Positions 5,440 through 16,778 of a stretch of DNA of 26,156 bases are shown piece by piece. A program made the position numbers and the translations under genes. The DNA comes from a virus. Positions within the stretch are counted from its first letter, which is position 1; each line of letters starts with the position of its first letter. The notes below the pieces were generated by a model. That model was not told the origin of the DNA. It ran no database searches and saw only the letters and a list, made by a program, of their open reading frames with translations. Location: positions 1 through 26,156 of IMG/VR virus record IMGVR_UViG_3300036715_001619; one strand, given 5' to 3'.

Positions 5440-6077
5440 TGGAAGTTTCAATTAAGCTTGAAGGCGTGGAGCAGATAAAAGAAAAATACAACCCTCAGCA
5501 AATTAATAAAGCGATTAAGTTTGCTTTAAAAAATTCTATTAGAAGCGGTAAGACAGAGGCAAGCTCCGACATTAGAGATAAATTGGGCTTTAATATAAAA
5601 AAATCCGATTTAGATAAAAAAATATCTACCAAATATAACGAAACAAAAGCCGAAATATCGGTAGTAGGCGAGCCTATTTTAATGTCCTATTTTAACCCAG
5701 TCCAAATAAGCGATAGAGTAAAAACTCAGATTAGAACTAAAAAGGGCAAATTTGAATTAACCACCAAAGGGACAAGAAAGCAAGCAACGGGCGGGGTGCA
5801 AGTGCAGATTATAAAAGGCCAGCAAACTATTATAAGTGGTGGCAATTGGCAGATTGGAAATATAGAGGGTGTTTTTATCGCAAGAGGGCAAGGCGGAACA
5901 CCATTAGTCTTTGGGCGTGAAGCAAGTGGCAAGTTAATTGCTCTTAAAGTTTATGGCCAAGAATTTATGTTTAAAAAGATTTTGGACTTAGTGGCCGATA
6001 AAGTAACAACCCAATGGCAAAAAGAATTCTCTAATCAAATAAAGCAATTAGAAGCGGGCACGGCAACTTGGATTTGA
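5439..6077 (+). CDS. minor tail protein Z-like (tail completion)
   Basis: A 212-residue protein. The N-terminal half has the pattern of the prophage minor tail protein Z family: an early helix, then KTEASSDIRDKLGFNIKKSDL, meaning helical ASxxIRxxxxIxxxxL sequences followed by beta strands. A basic glycine-rich strand region follows (RGQGGTPLVFGREASGKL) and the C-terminus is helical. In lambda, gpZ is needed for DNA to pass properly through the finished tail. It is joined to the gene before it by TAATG, suggesting translational coupling. Its place after the lysis cassette is unusual, since in lambda Z lies between the head-tail connector genes and tail genes. A near-consensus promoter overlaps its stop codon. 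Confidence 0.65.
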   Translation: MEVSIKLEGVEQIKEKYNPQQINKAIKFALKNSIRSGKTEASSDIRDKLGFNIKKSDLDKKISTKYNETKAEISVVGEPILMSYFNPVQISDRVKTQIRTKKGKFELTTKGTRKQATGGVQVQIIKGQQTIISGGNWQIGNIEGVFIARGQGGTPLVFGREASGKLIALKVYGQEFMFKKILDLVADKVTTQWQKEFSNQIKQLEAGTATWI

Positions 6078-6101
6078 CAAAATGGTTTAAATGTTTATAA
6101 T
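6074..6101 (+). promoter_or_regulatory. consensus sigma70-type promoter overlapping the gpZ stop
   Basis: A perfect TTGACA (6074-6079) and a perfect TATAAT (6096-6101) are separated by 16 bases. The gpZ stop codon TGA lies inside the -35 box. Transcription would start near 6108. No good coding frame follows before the hairpin at 6181, so it should make a short RNA or read through into the leader region. Confidence 0.65.
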
Positions 6102-6107
6102 GTATTT

Positions 6108-6210
6108 AGCCTAATGGTAAATTTTGCTGTATGCCACCTTATTGGGTGGCTCTAATAAGTGTTTCCTACTCAATAGTTAGACGCCCTTAGGGGCGTTTAT
6201 ACTTGATTTT
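6108..6210 (+). ncRNA. possible small RNA 1 (about 90-100 nt)
   Basis: The stretch lies between a perfect consensus promoter (6074-6101) and a hairpin plus T-rich end (6181-6210). It holds an internal perfect stem GCCACC/GGTGGC (6133-6138 with 6145-6150). The only ATG frame (6114-6155) would give 13 residues and has no ribosome site. I see no tRNA features: no T-arm and no acceptor pairing. The family is unknown. It could also be only the leader of a longer transcript, because the terminator's T-run is interrupted. Confidence 0.4.
6181..6210 (+). terminator. intrinsic terminator of small RNA 1 (modest)
   Basis: Perfect stem ACGCCC/GGGCGT with loop TTAG (6181-6196), followed by an interrupted T-rich stretch ending in a T-run at 6207-6212. 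The broken T-run makes it weaker than the terminators at 6284 and 7047. Confidence 0.5.
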
Positions 6211-6232
6211 TTATATATTTTATTGCTATAAT
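6203..6232 (+). promoter_or_regulatory. promoter for possible small RNA 2
   Basis: TTGATT (6203-6208), 18 bases, then a perfect TATAAT (6227-6232), which sits in the palindrome TTGCTATAATAGCAA. Transcription would start near 6239, just before the AAACCTCCG sequence. Confidence 0.45.
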
Positions 6233-6238
6233 AGCAAT

Positions 6239-6320
6239 AGAAACCTCCGTTAAGTTCACATCTCCTCTTTTTTTAGGCCAGCGCCCCAATAGTATTTTGC
6301 CAGCTATTGGGGTTCTTTTA
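6239..6320 (+). ncRNA. possible small RNA 2 with anti-Shine-Dalgarno sequence (about 80 nt)
   Basis: The stretch lies between a promoter (6203-6232) and a strong terminator (6284-6320) and has no usable reading frame. Its 5' part has little visible structure and contains GAAACCTCCG (6240-6249). The reverse complement of this covers the CGGAGGTT/GGAGGTTTC ribosome sites of the genes at 6701, 7242, 8262 and 9020 (8-9 matching bases each) and GAGGTTTC before 9228 (8 bases). A second pyrimidine run, TCTCCTC (6261-6267), follows. That is the layout of small RNAs that block ribosome sites. The alternative is a decayed inverted copy of a leader: the minus strand reads CCTAAAAAAAG and later CGGAGGTTT, as the leaders do. 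Confidence 0.4.
6284..6320 (+). terminator. strong intrinsic terminator
   Basis: Perfect 9-bp stem CCCCAATAG (6284-6292) / CTATTGGGG (6304-6312) with an 11-base loop, followed by TTCTTTTATT. It works only on the + strand, since no T-run follows on the other side. It insulates the late genes and small RNAs from the repeated early leaders. Confidence 0.75.
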
Positions 6321-6360
6321 TTGCAAAAAAATATAAAAAAAACAATAATTTTTTAATGCC

Positions 6361-6500
6361 TTTATTCTTATTATCTTAATGGCATAATCTAACTGAATAT
6401 TTTTAATAAAAACTTGACAAATAAATTTAATGTGATATAGTGTCCTAAAGTTTAATAAAAAACAATATAAATGACGGCGACGGTGCCCAAAATACTTTAA
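6361..6500 (+). promoter_or_regulatory. leader copy L1: orphan promoter without hairpin or gene
   Basis: First and most decayed of five related leaders. The downstream promoter is intact: TTGACA 6414-6419, 16 bases, TATAGT 6436-6441 with extended -10 TGA before it. The upstream one keeps CATAAT (6383-6388) but has a poor -35. After TATAGTGTC the sequence jumps straight to CTAAAGTTT, so the AGGATT hairpin and GGAGG site of the other copies are missing, as if deleted. The only frame that follows (ATG 6471 to TAA 6500, 9 residues) has no ribosome site. Transcription would run into leader L2. Confidence 0.6.
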
Positions 6501-6540
6501 TATAATTAGTGTTAATTTTAGAGATTTTTGATAAAAAATA

Positions 6541-6700
6541 ATAAAAAAAATAATAAAAAAAATATACGGTTTAATTATATTGTTATCTTAATATAATCTA
6601 AGGGTGTTTTTTTAATAAATACTTGACAAATAAAAAATATTTGATATAGTTAGTCTTAAGGATTGGTTAAAATCCTAAAAAATTTTTTCGGAGGTTCCAA
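6541..6700 (+). promoter_or_regulatory. leader copy L2: tandem promoters, 5' hairpin, strong RBS
   Basis: An A-tract stretch is followed by a first promoter, TTTAAT 6570-6575 / TATAAT 6592-6597 (16 apart). A second promoter follows, TTGACA 6623-6628 / TATAGT 6645-6650 (16 apart, extended -10 TGA). The predicted start is near 6657. The RNA would begin almost at once with a 6-bp hairpin AGGATT/AATCCT (6659-6664 with 6671-6676, loop GGTTAA). The ribosome site CGGAGG is at 6689-6694, 6 bases before ATG 6701. It drives the 108-residue gene. Confidence 0.75.
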
Positions 6701-7027
6701 ATGGATTACTTAGAAACTTTAAAAGAGTTTGAGAAACAGGTTGAGGCAGGCAGGTCTACGCTTGTTGTAAATGCTTCTGAATACCTGGTAAGCGAAAACC
6801 TTCTTGAGGCTATCGATGAGATAGTTGAAGAAAGAACAGGCTCTTATAGTGATAATGTCTTAGTCGAAGACGATGATTTGTTTTATATGAGCTCGAAGGG
6901 CTGGGTCTCGATAATAGTTACAATATGCCCAGCTGTAAATAATGAAAGCGACGAAAGCATAACTAATGAAATATACACAAGGCTTGAAAAGATAGTCGAA
7001 GCGTTAGATAAAAATAGAAAAAAATAA
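6701..7027 (+). CDS. small acidic protein of unknown function (early cassette 1)
   Basis: A 108-residue acidic protein; no family recognised. The pattern is an N-terminal helix, a strand (STLVVNASE, 19-27), an amphipathic helix (SENLLEAIDEIVEERTG, 31-47), two or three strands with KGWVSIIVTI (66-75), and a C-terminal helix. The order helix-TG-strands-helix is shared with the product at 8609 and, for the first half, with that at 8262, so the three may be paralogues. It stands alone between its own promoters (leader L2) and its own terminator (7047-7072), and so should be expressed strongly and early. By position it is a candidate for host takeover or anti-defence, but nothing in the sequence proves it. 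Confidence 0.7.
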   Translation: MDYLETLKEFEKQVEAGRSTLVVNASEYLVSENLLEAIDEIVEERTGSYSDNVLVEDDDLFYMSSKGWVSIIVTICPAVNNESDESITNEIYTRLEKIVEALDKNRKK

Positions 7028-7046
7028 AAAAGAAATAGAAAAAGAT

Positions 7047-7072
7047 AGAGGCCTTCGGGCCTCTTTTTTTTT
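7047..7072 (+). terminator. strong intrinsic terminator
   Basis: Perfect 7-bp stem AGAGGCC/GGCCTCT with a TTCG tetraloop (7047-7064), followed by a run of nine T. It ends the single-gene transcript of the 6701 gene. Confidence 0.85.
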
Positions 7073-7080
7073 GCCTAAAA

Positions 7081-7241
7081 TTTATAAAAAAATAATAAAA
7101 AAAATATACGGCTTGATTTTATTATTATCTTAGCATAATCTAACGGTAAAAAATAATAAAATACTTGACAAATAAAAAATATTTGATATAGTTAGATTTA
7201 AGGATTGGTTAAAATCCTAAAAAACTTTTGGAGGTTTCGAA
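7081..7241 (+). promoter_or_regulatory. leader copy L3: tandem promoters, 5' hairpin, strong RBS
   Basis: First promoter: TTGATT 7113-7118 / CATAAT 7134-7139 (15 apart). Second: TTGACA 7165-7170 / TATAGT 7187-7192 (16 apart, extended -10). The 5' hairpin is AGGATT/AATCCT (7201-7206 with 7213-7218, loop GGTTAA). The ribosome site GGAGG is at 7230-7234, before ATG 7242. It is nearly identical to L2 over the promoters and hairpin. Confidence 0.75.
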
Positions 7242-8036
7242 ATGAATGTTTATGACTTGGTAGTTGAAAAGATTTTAAAGGCAATGGAGCAAGGAATTGC
7301 TCCTTGGGTTAGTCCTTATGCAGGCAGAGCTAACAAAAATCTTGTATCGAAAAAAGAATATCGCGGAATTAATAGCCTGTTGCTAAATGCAGTAGCAACA
7401 GCAAACGGGTTTAAAAGTCCAAATTGGGCGACTTTTAAACAGGCCACAGAATTGGGATTAAAGGTAAAAAAAGGTTCCAAAGCAACAATGGTTGTGTTTT
7501 GGAAAGATTTAGAAACTGAAGACGAGGAAGAAAAAGCATCTAAAAGGTTTGTATTAAGATATTACAATGTATTTAATGCAAGCCAATTAGAGGGCTATGA
7601 AGAAGAAAAAATAGAGACTTGCAATAATGATATTTTAAACGATTATTGCAAGAGAGAGAATATAACAATTAAATTAGCCAATACGGTAGCGAGCTTTTAC
7701 GCTCCAAACAGTGATTCTATAGTATTGGCTCCTACAAAAAATGAATTTTATGATGCGAACTTCGCCCACGAATGTGTGCACTCTACAGGGCACCCCAAGA
7801 GATTGGGCAGGTTCGAACTTGGATTTATAGAGACACCAGAAAGGTCGCTCGAAGAATTGGTTGCAGAGATTGGAGCATCAATGTTATGCACGGTAATGGG
7901 CAAACCAGCCCATATTGAAAACACCGCAAGCTATGTTAGTAGTTGGGCGGATTTTTTAAGGGAAGATAAAAAATCTTCCATAATTAAAGCTTCTTCTATG
8001 GCCCAAAAAGCCGTAGATTATATATTAAATAAATAG
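7242..8036 (+). CDS. ArdC-like antirestriction protein with zincin-type peptidase domain
   Basis: A 264-residue protein in two parts. Residues 1-115 match the ArdC N-terminal ssDNA-binding domain: an early GIAPWVSPY, YRGINSLLLNAV at 40-51, and a LGLKVKKGSKATMVVFWK stretch. Residues 125-264 match the polyvalent metallopeptidase domain, with zinc motif HECVH (176-180, HExxH) and a downstream EELVAEIGA helix (204-212) that supplies the third ligand in the family. ArdC proteins are known from plasmids and phages and protect incoming DNA from restriction; the peptidase substrate is not established. It sits alone under leader L3 and ends in tandem terminator hairpins. The family is clear; activity in this phage is inferred. 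Confidence 0.85.
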   Translation: MNVYDLVVEKILKAMEQGIAPWVSPYAGRANKNLVSKKEYRGINSLLLNAVATANGFKSPNWATFKQATELGLKVKKGSKATMVVFWKDLETEDEEEKASKRFVLRYYNVFNASQLEGYEEEKIETCNNDILNDYCKRENITIKLANTVASFYAPNSDSIVLAPTKNEFYDANFAHECVHSTGHPKRLGRFELGFIETPERSLEELVAEIGASMLCTVMGKPAHIENTASYVSSWADFLREDKKSSIIKASSMAQKAVDYILNK

Positions 8037-8081
8037 GCCGAAAGGCCTATATTTAAGCGAGGCCGAAAGGCCTTTTTTTTT
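8035..8081 (+). terminator. tandem hairpins, the second an intrinsic terminator
   Basis: Two near-identical hairpins AGGCC-GAAA-GGCCT lie 25 bases apart: 8035-8048 (starting inside the ArdC stop codon) and 8060-8073. Only the second is followed by a T-run (8073-8081) and is a proper terminator. The first may protect the 3' end or be a duplicated copy. Confidence 0.8.
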
Positions 8082-8100
8082 GCCCAAAAATTATAAAATT

Positions 8101-8261
8101 TTTATAAAAAAATAATAAAAAAAATATACGGCTTGATTTTTATTATTATCTTAATATAATCTGACGGTATTTTTTTAATAAAAACTTGACAAATAAATTT
8201 TATATGATATAGTGTCTTTTAAGGATTGAGAAAGTCCTAAAAAAAGTTTCGGAGGTTTGAA
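8101..8261 (+). promoter_or_regulatory. leader copy L4: tandem promoters, 5' hairpin, strong RBS
   Basis: First promoter: TTGATT 8133-8138 / TATAAT 8155-8160 (16 apart). Second: TTGACA 8186-8191 / TATAGT 8208-8213 (16 apart, extended -10). Hairpin AGGATT/AGTCCT (8222-8227 with 8233-8238, loop GAGAA) keeps pairing through one U-G pair although its sequence differs from L2/L3. Ribosome site CGGAGG is at 8250-8255, before ATG 8262. Confidence 0.75.
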
Positions 8262-8612
8262 ATGAACGGAGCAAGCAACTCAAAGGTTTTAGAGGCTTTG
8301 GTAGAAAAGGCAGGACACGGTATTTTAGTGGCAGATGCAGAAGGAATGAGCTTGAACTTAATGTTAGAGCTCGCAAAAAGGTTCGAAGATTATCTCGGGA
8401 AAGAATTTGTATGCGACCACGAGGGCAAAAAGATTGTAATAAGATTAAAAAACACCCGTGATGTAAAAGCTCTTAAATGGAGCGACGGCATAGCTGTTGA
8501 GGCAACCGATTTAATAGTGTTTAATAGTATACCAAAAATAACTGCGGGCAATGAGTTAGATATGCAGGCAATAGTAGTAAGAACAGACTATGCTAAAAGG
8601 GGACAAAAATGA
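8262..8612 (+). CDS. small protein of unknown function (early cassette 3, first gene)
   Basis: A 116-residue protein; no family recognised. The order is helix (3-17), strand (HGILVADAE), amphipathic helix (SLNLMLELAKRFEDYLG, about 30-46), and strands around KKIVIRLKN. This matches the first half of the 6701 and 8609 products. The second half differs and ends in a basic tail (DYAKRGQK). It is translated from the strong L4 ribosome site, and its stop overlaps the next start by four bases (ATGA), so the two are probably made together. No signal peptide or membrane segment. Confidence 0.65.
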   Translation: MNGASNSKVLEALVEKAGHGILVADAEGMSLNLMLELAKRFEDYLGKEFVCDHEGKKIVIRLKNTRDVKALKWSDGIAVEATDLIVFNSIPKITAGNELDMQAIVVRTDYAKRGQK

Positions 8613-8905
8613 ACAATATAGAGATTATGGAACTCCAGTCCAAAAAGGGCTGGGGGTTTTTTGAAATCGAAAATGCGAGCCAAGAGTTTATAGAAACGGT
8701 GGCCGTAACTGTTGAGGCATTGACGGGCGAGCAAACAGCCACAGTAAGGGCAGGAAGAATGTATTTATATGTAAGGGCCCCAAAAAAGTGGGCCAATGGT
8801 TTGATTATGGTAATAACAAGAATGGGCGGGCCCGAGGCAATCTCTGAGGCTGATAGTGGAAGAATAAAAAAGGCCTTAGAGATATTAATAAAGAATAAGG
8901 CTTAA
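8609..8905 (+). CDS. small protein of unknown function (early cassette 3, second gene)
   Basis: A 98-residue protein; no family recognised. Strand (GWGFFEIENAS, 14-24), helix ending in a TG turn (ETVAVTVEALTG, 29-40), strands (RMYLYVRAPKKW, 49-60, then GLIMVITRM), and a C-terminal helix (ALEILIKNKA). The layout parallels the 6701 product over most of its length, including a KKW/KGW turn before a hydrophobic strand. It overlaps the preceding gene as ATGA and has AAAAGGGGAC before its start. No terminator follows; an inverted repeat and leader L5 do. Confidence 0.65.
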   Translation: MNNIEIMELQSKKGWGFFEIENASQEFIETVAVTVEALTGEQTATVRAGRMYLYVRAPKKWANGLIMVITRMGGPEAISEADSGRIKKALEILIKNKA

Positions 8906-8912
8906 AAAGGTT

Positions 8913-8954
8913 ATTTGTCAGGCGTAAAAAAAAATATAAAAACGCTTGACAAAT
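8913..8954. repeat. inverted repeat whose right arm contains the L5 -35 box
   Basis: ATTTGTCAGGCG (8913-8924) and CGCTTGACAAAT (8943-8954) are inverted copies with one mismatch, 18 bases apart. The right arm holds the TTGACA of the next leader. No T-run follows, so it is not a normal terminator. It may be an operator, or a hairpin in RNA reading through from 8905. Confidence 0.5.
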
Positions 8955-9019
8955 AAATTTAATTTGATAAGATGTCTTTAAAGGATTGAAAAATCCTAAA
9001 AACTTTTTGGAGGTTTCCA
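8943..9019 (+). promoter_or_regulatory. leader copy L5: single promoter, 5' hairpin, strong RBS
   Basis: Short form of the leader, lacking the upstream promoter. TTGACA 8946-8951, 16 bases, TAAGAT 8968-8973 (extended -10 TGA). Hairpin AGGATT-GAAA-AATCCT (8982-8997) has a GNRA-type loop. Ribosome site GGAGG is at 9009-9013, before ATG 9020. No terminator is seen until after 16205, so this promoter could drive the whole replication operon. Confidence 0.7.
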
Positions 9020-9235
9020 ATGGTAAAAGCAGTGTTACTGGGCGAATGGGATTTTGGTGGTTATAACCACAACCACCTGAATGTCTACGAGGGCGAGGGC
9101 AAATATTTTATTAACAATGTAACGGATAGCGAGGGCATATTCATTAGCGTTAATGGCGAGGCCATTAATGTGATAGAGTTGGGCGAGCACCTATGCCCAC
9201 CTAAAGTTATAAAATCAGAGGTTTCAAATGATTAG
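9020..9235 (+). CDS. small protein of unknown function, first gene of the replication operon
   Basis: A 71-residue protein, acidic, beta-rich by eye (KAVLLGEWDF, KYFINNVTD, GIFISVNGEAINVIEL); no family recognised. It follows leader L5 directly with a GGAGG site, so it is the first translated gene of the long operon that reaches the primase-helicase. It overlaps the next gene by 8 bases. No signal peptide or membrane segment. Its position fits an early host-takeover or regulatory role, but this is inference only. Confidence 0.6.
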   Translation: MVKAVLLGEWDFGGYNHNHLNVYEGEGKYFINNVTDSEGIFISVNGEAINVIELGEHLCPPKVIKSEVSND

Positions 9236-9464
9236 ATTATTAGCTTCAAGAAAGGGCTTTTTAAGTGCTTTAGACGCTTGTTCGGTTATGATAGTATACA
9301 AAGCAGATAAAGATACATACGTTGATATAAATGGCAAGAAATTTAAAGACAATGGCAATCCAAATATAGATGGAATCACGGTCTATGAATTGGATTACGA
9401 CGACGAGTTCGATAAAATTTATTTAGTGGAACACAATGTTGTTCCTATAGGCGGTGCTTTATGA
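9228..9464 (+). CDS. small acidic protein of unknown function
   Basis: A 78-residue protein, acidic in its second half (YELDYDDEFDKIYLVEH), with a basic/hydrophobic start (MIRLLASRKGFLSALDA); no family recognised. Its ribosome site, GAGGTTTC, lies inside the preceding gene and shares eight bases with the leader ribosome sites. It ends in ATGA overlap with the next gene, so it is translated as part of a coupled group of three. Confidence 0.6.
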   Translation: MIRLLASRKGFLSALDACSVMIVYKADKDTYVDINGKKFKDNGNPNIDGITVYELDYDDEFDKIYLVEHNVVPIGGAL

Positions 9465-9664
9465 GCACCGCCATTATTATTTTATTGGTTTATTTTATGC
9501 CAACCGTAATTGCTTTATTAAGTAAAAAGAAAAATAACCTTGCTATCCTAACCTTGAATTTGCTTCTTGGTTGGACTGTTTTGGGTTGGATTATAGCCTT
9601 AGTTTGGGCAGTTACTAAAGATAGCAATATGACCATAGTAATAAATAAGGACGCTGACGCCTGA
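9461..9664 (+). CDS. superinfection immunity protein (Imm-like membrane protein)
   Basis: A 67-residue protein with two membrane segments (about 3-20 and 28-50) joined by a short basic loop (SKKKNN). The pattern YFMPTVIALL then NLAILTLNLLLGWTVLGWIIALVWAV is the hallmark of the superinfection immunity protein family related to T4 Imm. T4 Imm acts at the inner membrane to stop DNA entry by further phages; homologues also occur widely in bacteria without a tested role. Here it is in an early operon next to SSB, as expected for a gene that closes the cell quickly after infection. The start overlaps the previous stop. Confidence 0.75.
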   Translation: MSTAIIILLVYFMPTVIALLSKKKNNLAILTLNLLLGWTVLGWIIALVWAVTKDSNMTIVINKDADA

Positions 9665-9704
9665 CCGTATGGCAGGATAAAGTAGGCGTTATGTCGGGGG
9701 GCTT

Positions 9705-16604: not shown

Positions 16605-16778
16605 ATGGAAGGCTTTCTGAATTTGAGAGAGGCATCGACGGTTTTGGGCTACAGCACGGATTGGACAAGGCGACTGATTAAAAAAGGCAGGATAAAAACT
16701 GAGAAATTGGGCAAGCAATATGTGATTACCAAGGCTGAGTTGGAGCGTTTTATAAAAGAAAGGGCCAAAGGTAAATGA
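16605..16778 (+). CDS. small excisionase/MerR-type HTH DNA-binding protein
   Basis: A 57-residue protein with the HTH_17 pattern: FLNLREASTVLGYSTDWTRRLIKKGRI then KLGKQYVITKAELERFI. That is a helix-turn-helix with a following wing of the kind used by excisionases and MerR-like regulators. It has a strong ribosome site (AAGGGGGTT) and its own promoter, and it overlaps the next gene as ATGA. No integrase is seen, so an Xis role is unlikely. Binding to the adjacent iterons or to its own promoter is more likely, but this is inferred from position. Confidence 0.75.
   Translation: MEGFLNLREASTVLGYSTDWTRRLIKKGRIKTEKLGKQYVITKAELERFIKERAKGK

Follow-up and report, generated by a model that had tools for sequence, protein, structure and literature searches.

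A repeated promoter-hairpin-ribosome-binding-site leader in front of putative early genes of a phage, and a candidate small RNA complementary to it

The linear virus record IMGVR_UViG_3300036715_001619, analysed over its whole length of 26,156 bases (the window), carries tail, neck, early, replication and packaging genes, and the small genes of its early region are preceded by copies of one regulatory leader, named L1 to L5 here. The exact sequence TTGACAAATAAA occurs five times in the window, always on the plus strand (at 6414, 6623, 7165, 8186 and 8946), and a search for TTGACAAATAAA-N7-TGATA permitting up to three mismatches also returned five matches, every one of them exact, against an expectation of 0.38; none of 100 shuffled sequences gave five. 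The five copies claimed in a preliminary description of this DNA are thereby borne out. The elements of the leaders, the distal blocks of L1 to L3 being read from the sequence, are as follows (SD, Shine-Dalgarno sequence).

6361–6388, plus strand: distal promoter-like block of L1, TTTATT-16-CATAAT
6414–6441, plus strand: promoter of L1, TTGACA-16-TATAGT, extended −10
6570–6597, plus strand: distal promoter-like block of L2, TTTAAT-16-TATAAT
6623–6650, plus strand: promoter of L2, TTGACA-16-TATAGT, extended −10
6658–6694, plus strand: 5′ leader of L2, with predicted +1 at about 6658, hairpin AGGATT/AATCCT at 6659–6676 and SD GGAGG at 6690–6694
7113–7139, plus strand: distal promoter-like block of L3, TTGATT-15-CATAAT
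7165–7192, plus strand: promoter of L3, extended −10
7200–7234, plus strand: 5′ leader of L3, with hairpin at 7201–7218 and SD GGAGG at 7230–7234
8133–8160, plus strand: distal promoter-like block of L4, TTGATT-16-TATAAT
8186–8213, plus strand: promoter of L4, extended −10
8221–8255, plus strand: 5′ leader of L4, with hairpin at 8222–8238 and SD GGAGG at 8251–8255; top predicted partner of the small RNA candidate sRNA2 (see below)
8946–8973, plus strand: promoter of L5, TTGACA-16-TAAGAT, no distal block
8981–9013, plus strand: 5′ leader of L5, with hairpin at 8982–8997 and SD GGAGG at 9009–9013

The likeness of the leaders exceeds the length of a promoter, the repeat families comprising 146 nt in three copies, 110 nt in four and 63 nt in five. 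As described earlier, the promoter spacer is 16 bp in all five, and in L2 to L5 a 6-bp hairpin is followed by GGAGGTT shortly 5′ of the ATG. The −10 element, thought to be common to all, is TATAGT in L1 to L4 but TAAGAT in L5; likewise, a distal promoter-like block about 50 bp upstream does exist, but in four leaders (L1 to L4) rather than in three, L5 having none. L1 lacks the hairpin and the ribosome binding site (RBS), and no gene of at least 40 amino acids (aa) lies between it and L2.

Two related contigs from IMG/VR were compared with the window (W): contig A (3300035180_002195), with 92–97% protein identity (ArdC, Erf, neck proteins), and contig B (3300035182_001706), with 80–95% (Erf, neck proteins). 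There are five leader copies in W, six in A (five of them with the hairpin) and one in B, and TTGACAAATAAA is exact in all 12. Lack of leader conservation in related phages had been named as a finding that would refute the earlier interpretation; A and B both keep the leader, and the repeat is confirmed as real and conserved. The deduced L1 transcript (6443–6620) contains a 9-codon open reading frame, ATGACGGCGACGGTG..., which has no SD; contig A has it too, with one residue different.

The distance from the −10 element to AAGGATT is exactly 7 nt in each of the ten leaders with a hairpin in the three contigs; as transcription from a sigma-70 promoter would begin there, the RNA is predicted to start with AAGGAUU and to carry the hairpin at its 5′ terminus. 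In the predicted RNAs, all ten leaders fold such that the hairpin begins with the first or second base, with minimum free energies of −7.7 to −10.1 compared to shuffle means of −2.8 to −5.5. The stem (6–7 bp) is nearly invariant, the loop (4–6 nt) varies (GGUUAA, GAGAA, GAAA). An invariant stem, a variable loop and a fixed distance to the −10 element in all ten leaders would fit a DNA operator as well: AGGATT...AATCCT, at +2 to +18, might be bound by a phage or host repressor which shuts all leader promoters together, the RNA hairpin being incidental, and an HTH_17 DNA-binding protein is indeed encoded at 16605–16778. However, the distance between the two arms is not constant (differences of up to 2 bp, loops of 4–6 nt), which would rotate the half-sites relative to each other, L1 is a promoter without the inverted repeat, and HTH_17 proteins are often excisionases, which are also among the PHROG matches of this one; an operator is, thus, considered unlikely. 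No match to PF00589, that is, no integrase, was found in five records of this phage group.

The cassette genes behind L2 to L5 are as follows.

6701–7027, plus strand: gene for a 108-aa protein, family not assigned; terminator at 7047–7064 behind it
7242–8036, plus strand: gene for an ArdC-like anti-restriction protein (ArdcN and zincin domains); terminator at 8059–8074 behind it
8262–8905, plus strand: two overlapping small genes (116 and 98 aa), families not assigned
9020–9464, plus strand: genes for 71 and 78 aa, families not assigned

The separate small transcripts proposed for these cassettes agree with the terminators behind the 108-aa gene and ardC, but none was found in the window sequence between the L4 genes and L5. 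The cassette genes are regarded as early from their position beside the ssb, Erf and primase genes and from their host-type sigma-70 promoters; the strength of these promoters, together with the proximity of the replication genes, suggests early firing. Modules for host takeover that comprise numerous small early genes are known from phages such as SPO1 (PMC6873191). Those modules resemble the present locus in the clustering of small early genes mostly without known function, and differ in the gene families. To our knowledge, no shared hairpin-RBS leader occurs in SPO1-type modules.

Cassette content differs between the contigs. Contig A encodes two paralogs of the 108-aa protein of the window (66% and 85% identical) under separate leaders; the single leader of contig B has sRNA2 on one side and, on the other, the 71-aa gene, which is leader-linked in all three contigs. 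The upstream flank of the B leader is most similar to W1/A1 (scores of 43–44 vs ≤33.5), its downstream part to A2 and W5; it may have arisen by recombination of an L1-like with an L5-like leader, or else preserve an ancestral arrangement that predates cassette addition. Given the chimera-like leader of B and the additional paralogous cassette of A, the repeats seem to be sites at which cassettes enter and leave the genome. Carried to its end, this view would make the repeats marks of recent cassette duplication or recombination (moron-like accretion), the likeness of the leaders reflecting copying and not selection for shared control; the copy numbers (5, 6 and 1), the paralogous cassette in A and the chimera-like leader in B are what would be expected then. 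Yet orthologous leaders pair between W and A (W2 with A3, W4 with A5), and the −35 block, the −10 distance, the stem and the SD stay constant amid variable spacers, loops and distal flanks, which makes copying as the sole explanation quite improbable.

The best supported reading is that the leader is a self-contained, plug-in expression unit composed of a host sigma-70 promoter, a 5′-terminal hairpin and a strong SD, and, overall, the leaders are probably copies of one early-expression unit. Host RNA polymerase would fire every such unit as infection starts, the 5′-terminal hairpin and the SD would slow 5′-end-dependent mRNA decay, and recombination between leaders would add or remove cassettes. 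5′-terminal stem-loops with a bound ribosome are known mRNA stabilisers, for example, in ompA, papA and Bacillus subtilis aprE (works listed in PMC3997798); their hairpin lies close to the 5′ terminus or right on it, as is predicted for the phage leader, and a strong SD follows, but these are single genes with measured stability while the phage leader is a repeated unit. Closer in arrangement are the SAS and ESAS of Cluster K mycobacteriophages, RBS-containing repeats just 5′ of several non-structural gene starts (PMC3203893), first described in 2011; their partner, be it RNA or protein, is not known and, as of 2025, their role still awaited verification (PMC12699233). They comprise 11–19 copies of the 13-bp GGGATAGGAGCCC, about half of them with an upstream inverted repeat; the latter are 17-bp imperfect repeats, for which the authors doubt RNA hairpin formation. 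A conserved RBS repeat at many starts of one phage and the inverted repeats are common to both systems, but the sequences are unrelated and a shared promoter is not described as part of the mycobacteriophage unit; in the phage described here, a sigma-70 promoter starts the unit, the predicted transcript has the hairpin at its 5′ terminus, and the vicinity harbours a candidate RNA partner. The leader is, accordingly, not a member of SAS/ESAS, though it may work like an SAS: its RBS is CGGAGGTTTC-like and not the 13-bp GGGATAGGAGCCC, and it has a stem of 6–7 bp and loops of 4–6 nt instead of a 17-bp imperfect inverted repeat.

Upstream of L1 lie two promoter-terminator pairs, each of which may define a small RNA (sRNA1 and sRNA2). 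The one next to L1 (6203–6320), outside the region covered by the preliminary description, is an unannotated small RNA gene candidate.

6203–6232, plus strand: sRNA2 promoter, TTGATT-18-TATAAT with TG extension (TGCTATAAT), kept in A and B
6239–6320, plus strand: predicted sRNA2 of about 80 nt, with terminator stem 6284–6292/6304–6312 (9 bp) and T tract 6313–6319
6242–6249, 6260–6267 and 6269–6277, plus strand: sRNA2 motifs AACCUCCG, AUCUCCUC and UUUUUUAGG, respectively

Prediction, thus, assigns to sRNA2 its own promoter and intrinsic terminator without a conserved open reading frame. Promoter, motifs and terminator stem are intact in all three contigs, a few substitutions and small indels falling between motifs and stem. 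Between W and B the sRNA2 body differs at 3 of 78 positions, compared to 22 of 92 in the next spacer toward L1 (p 0.0002) and 26 of 211 third positions in the neck gene (p 0.045). A peptide encoded on the reverse strand of 6203–6320 was considered; an SD-like sequence is present, but the frames shift between the contigs through 1-nt indels, and no reverse promoter was seen by eye. Rfam gave no match above the gathering score, the sole match up to an E value of 1 being cow-rumen-3 (E 0.39), located elsewhere (9449–9547).

Two segments of sRNA2 are complementary to the leaders, AACCUCCG to their CGGAGGUU and UUUUUUAGG to their CCUAAAAAA, in antiparallel order. Duplexes of sRNA2 with the start regions of the four leaders have a mean energy of −25.1 kcal/mol, compared to −16.4 for shuffled sRNAs, one in 500 of which was as low; its preference for leaders over non-leader genes was likewise reached in one of 500 shuffles. 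Ranking 36 start regions by longest exact match placed the four leader genes and the start at 9228 among the top six, as five of them. Since the sRNA2 motif had been spotted by eye before these tests, the least biased one is a ranking of the whole window in 45-nt pieces (approximately 5,800 segments); once the antisense strands of the leaders and of the adjacent 9228 RBS are excluded, sRNA2 comes first in it as a trans complement of the leaders. An RBS of ssb found in A and B (L006 14708, L007 11558), not in the window, reads CGGAGGTTTT and is a 10-base perfect complement of the sRNA2 of these contigs (AAAACCUCCG); ssb may be a further sRNA2 target there.

The region 6074–6320 could also consist only of promoters and terminators keeping late and early transcription apart, in which case the match to the anti-SD would be coincidental; it is situated between a neck/tail gene and the early cassettes with two promoter-terminator pairs, and AACCTCCG is just 8 nt long. 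This is rather doubtful, as AACCTCCG occurs only once on the plus strand of the window, the sRNA2 body between promoter and terminator is better conserved than the next spacer, and sRNA2 tops the ranking of trans segments. Alternatively, sRNA2 might be real but act on host mRNAs, or mimic the anti-SD tail of 16S rRNA, the match to the leaders being a by-product of their strong SDs. Its two CU-rich motifs do resemble the 16S anti-SD (CCUCC), and it is conserved in B despite the single leader and the weak pairing predicted there; on the other hand, the complementarity reaches past either end of the SD core (CGGAGGUUU, CCUAAAAAA), and within the window it is strongest for the leader genes. A host target or mimicry is, therefore, conceivable without being a probable explanation.

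Control of the leaders by sRNA2, too, is a tentative, if testable, proposal. It envisages an RNA regulon of the phage in which all early cassettes share the hairpin-SD leader and one sRNA (6239–6320) with two leader-complementary segments would silence them all in trans, a scheme we consider possible but doubtful. sRNA2 might pair with the A-run and the SD of the leaders and so block ribosome loading, and its accumulation could, perhaps, shut down the cassettes together. Having its own host-type promoter, it might, speculatively, be transcribed from the outset and build up as genomes multiply, resulting in a pulse of early proteins. Several observations weigh against this scheme or parts of it. 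In contig A, sRNA2 is the second-best locus, the higher-scoring one being the antisense of an RBS-like sequence; in contig B its pairing is unremarkable (rank 160, z −1.7), and B retained sRNA2 without the other cassettes. An RNA bearing CCUCC fits any SD, and some SD bases are predicted to be paired inside the leader. Regarding the leader itself, its likeness could partly stem from duplication or conversion; the single variable stem pair (U-A to U-G) neither supports nor refutes the hairpin, covariation being without power because only three contigs carry the region. Of the single control formerly proposed for all cassettes, the common promoter type and RBS stand, plausibly with common early expression, but a common regulator is no more than a candidate, sRNA2. 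If the scheme were true, new genes would join the regulon merely by recombining in behind a leader, which would explain both the gain of accessory early genes and their simultaneous, common control. With its repeated leader and the conserved, complementary RNA candidate nearby, this smaller, AT-rich system makes it testable whether early genes are plugged in at a site under RNA control.

Phage antisense RNAs acting on the phage's own mRNAs are known, such as P22 sar, which blocks translation initiation of ant, and lambda OOP (PMC12197685); like these, sRNA2 would be a short phage RNA complementary to phage mRNA, but each of them has one locus and sRNA2 would act in trans on four or five leaders. 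Bacteria possess CU-rich anti-SD sRNAs, for example, RsaE of Staphylococcus aureus with its UCCC motif (PMC9266662). In both cases a single-stranded C-rich motif is proposed to pair with target starts and block ribosome binding; RsaE, however, is a chromosomal metabolic regulator and sRNA2 a predicted phage RNA without an Rfam match.

Searches beyond the two contigs added no further carrier. Among 50,697 phage records, megablast with 5800–9600 found no similar DNA and blastn with 6074–6330 only weak, short matches. The AGGCCAGCNCCCCAATAG pattern gave two extra matches in viral contigs (L010, L011), both inside coding frames of unrelated phages, and the sRNA2 pattern a single one in bacterial genomes (L012), inside a coding frame, read as prmC-like, of a Ruminococcus metagenome-assembled genome; all three are attributed to chance. 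Neither leader nor sRNA motif was found in the TerL relatives (L013–L020), the distant ArdC relatives (L002, L003) are without a leader match, and the last viral scan found no relatives of the 108-aa protein.

The second promoter-terminator pair lies directly upstream of sRNA2.

6074–6205, plus strand: predicted sRNA1, with promoter TTGACA-16-TATAAT at 6074–6101 and terminator stem at 6178–6199

Its promoter overlaps the end of the neck gene and is identical over 32 bases in A and B; the 20-base core GTGTTTCCTACTCAATAG, just 5′ of the terminator, is identical in all three contigs. W and A carry about 50 additional bases with a GCCACC/GGGTGGC hairpin, which B is without. A complementarity scan found no strong phage target of sRNA1.

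Downstream of the cassettes, a gene for a superinfection-immunity protein (PF14373) is located at 9461–9664, where contigs A and B hold only a short hairpin-like stretch. The 5′ region of ssb (9648–9704) looks structured in all three contigs, with GACGCC...GGCGT around CCTGACC...GGCAGG, and in contig B the outer stem is GCGAC/GTCGC, which suggests a compensatory change; both were judged by eye only. Further away, the product of 20556–21356 matches beta-glucosyl-HMC-alpha-glucosyltransferase (phrog_842), and the vicinity of this gene to those of a DNA methyltransferase (18130) and a ParB-like protein (19936) points to possible DNA modification.

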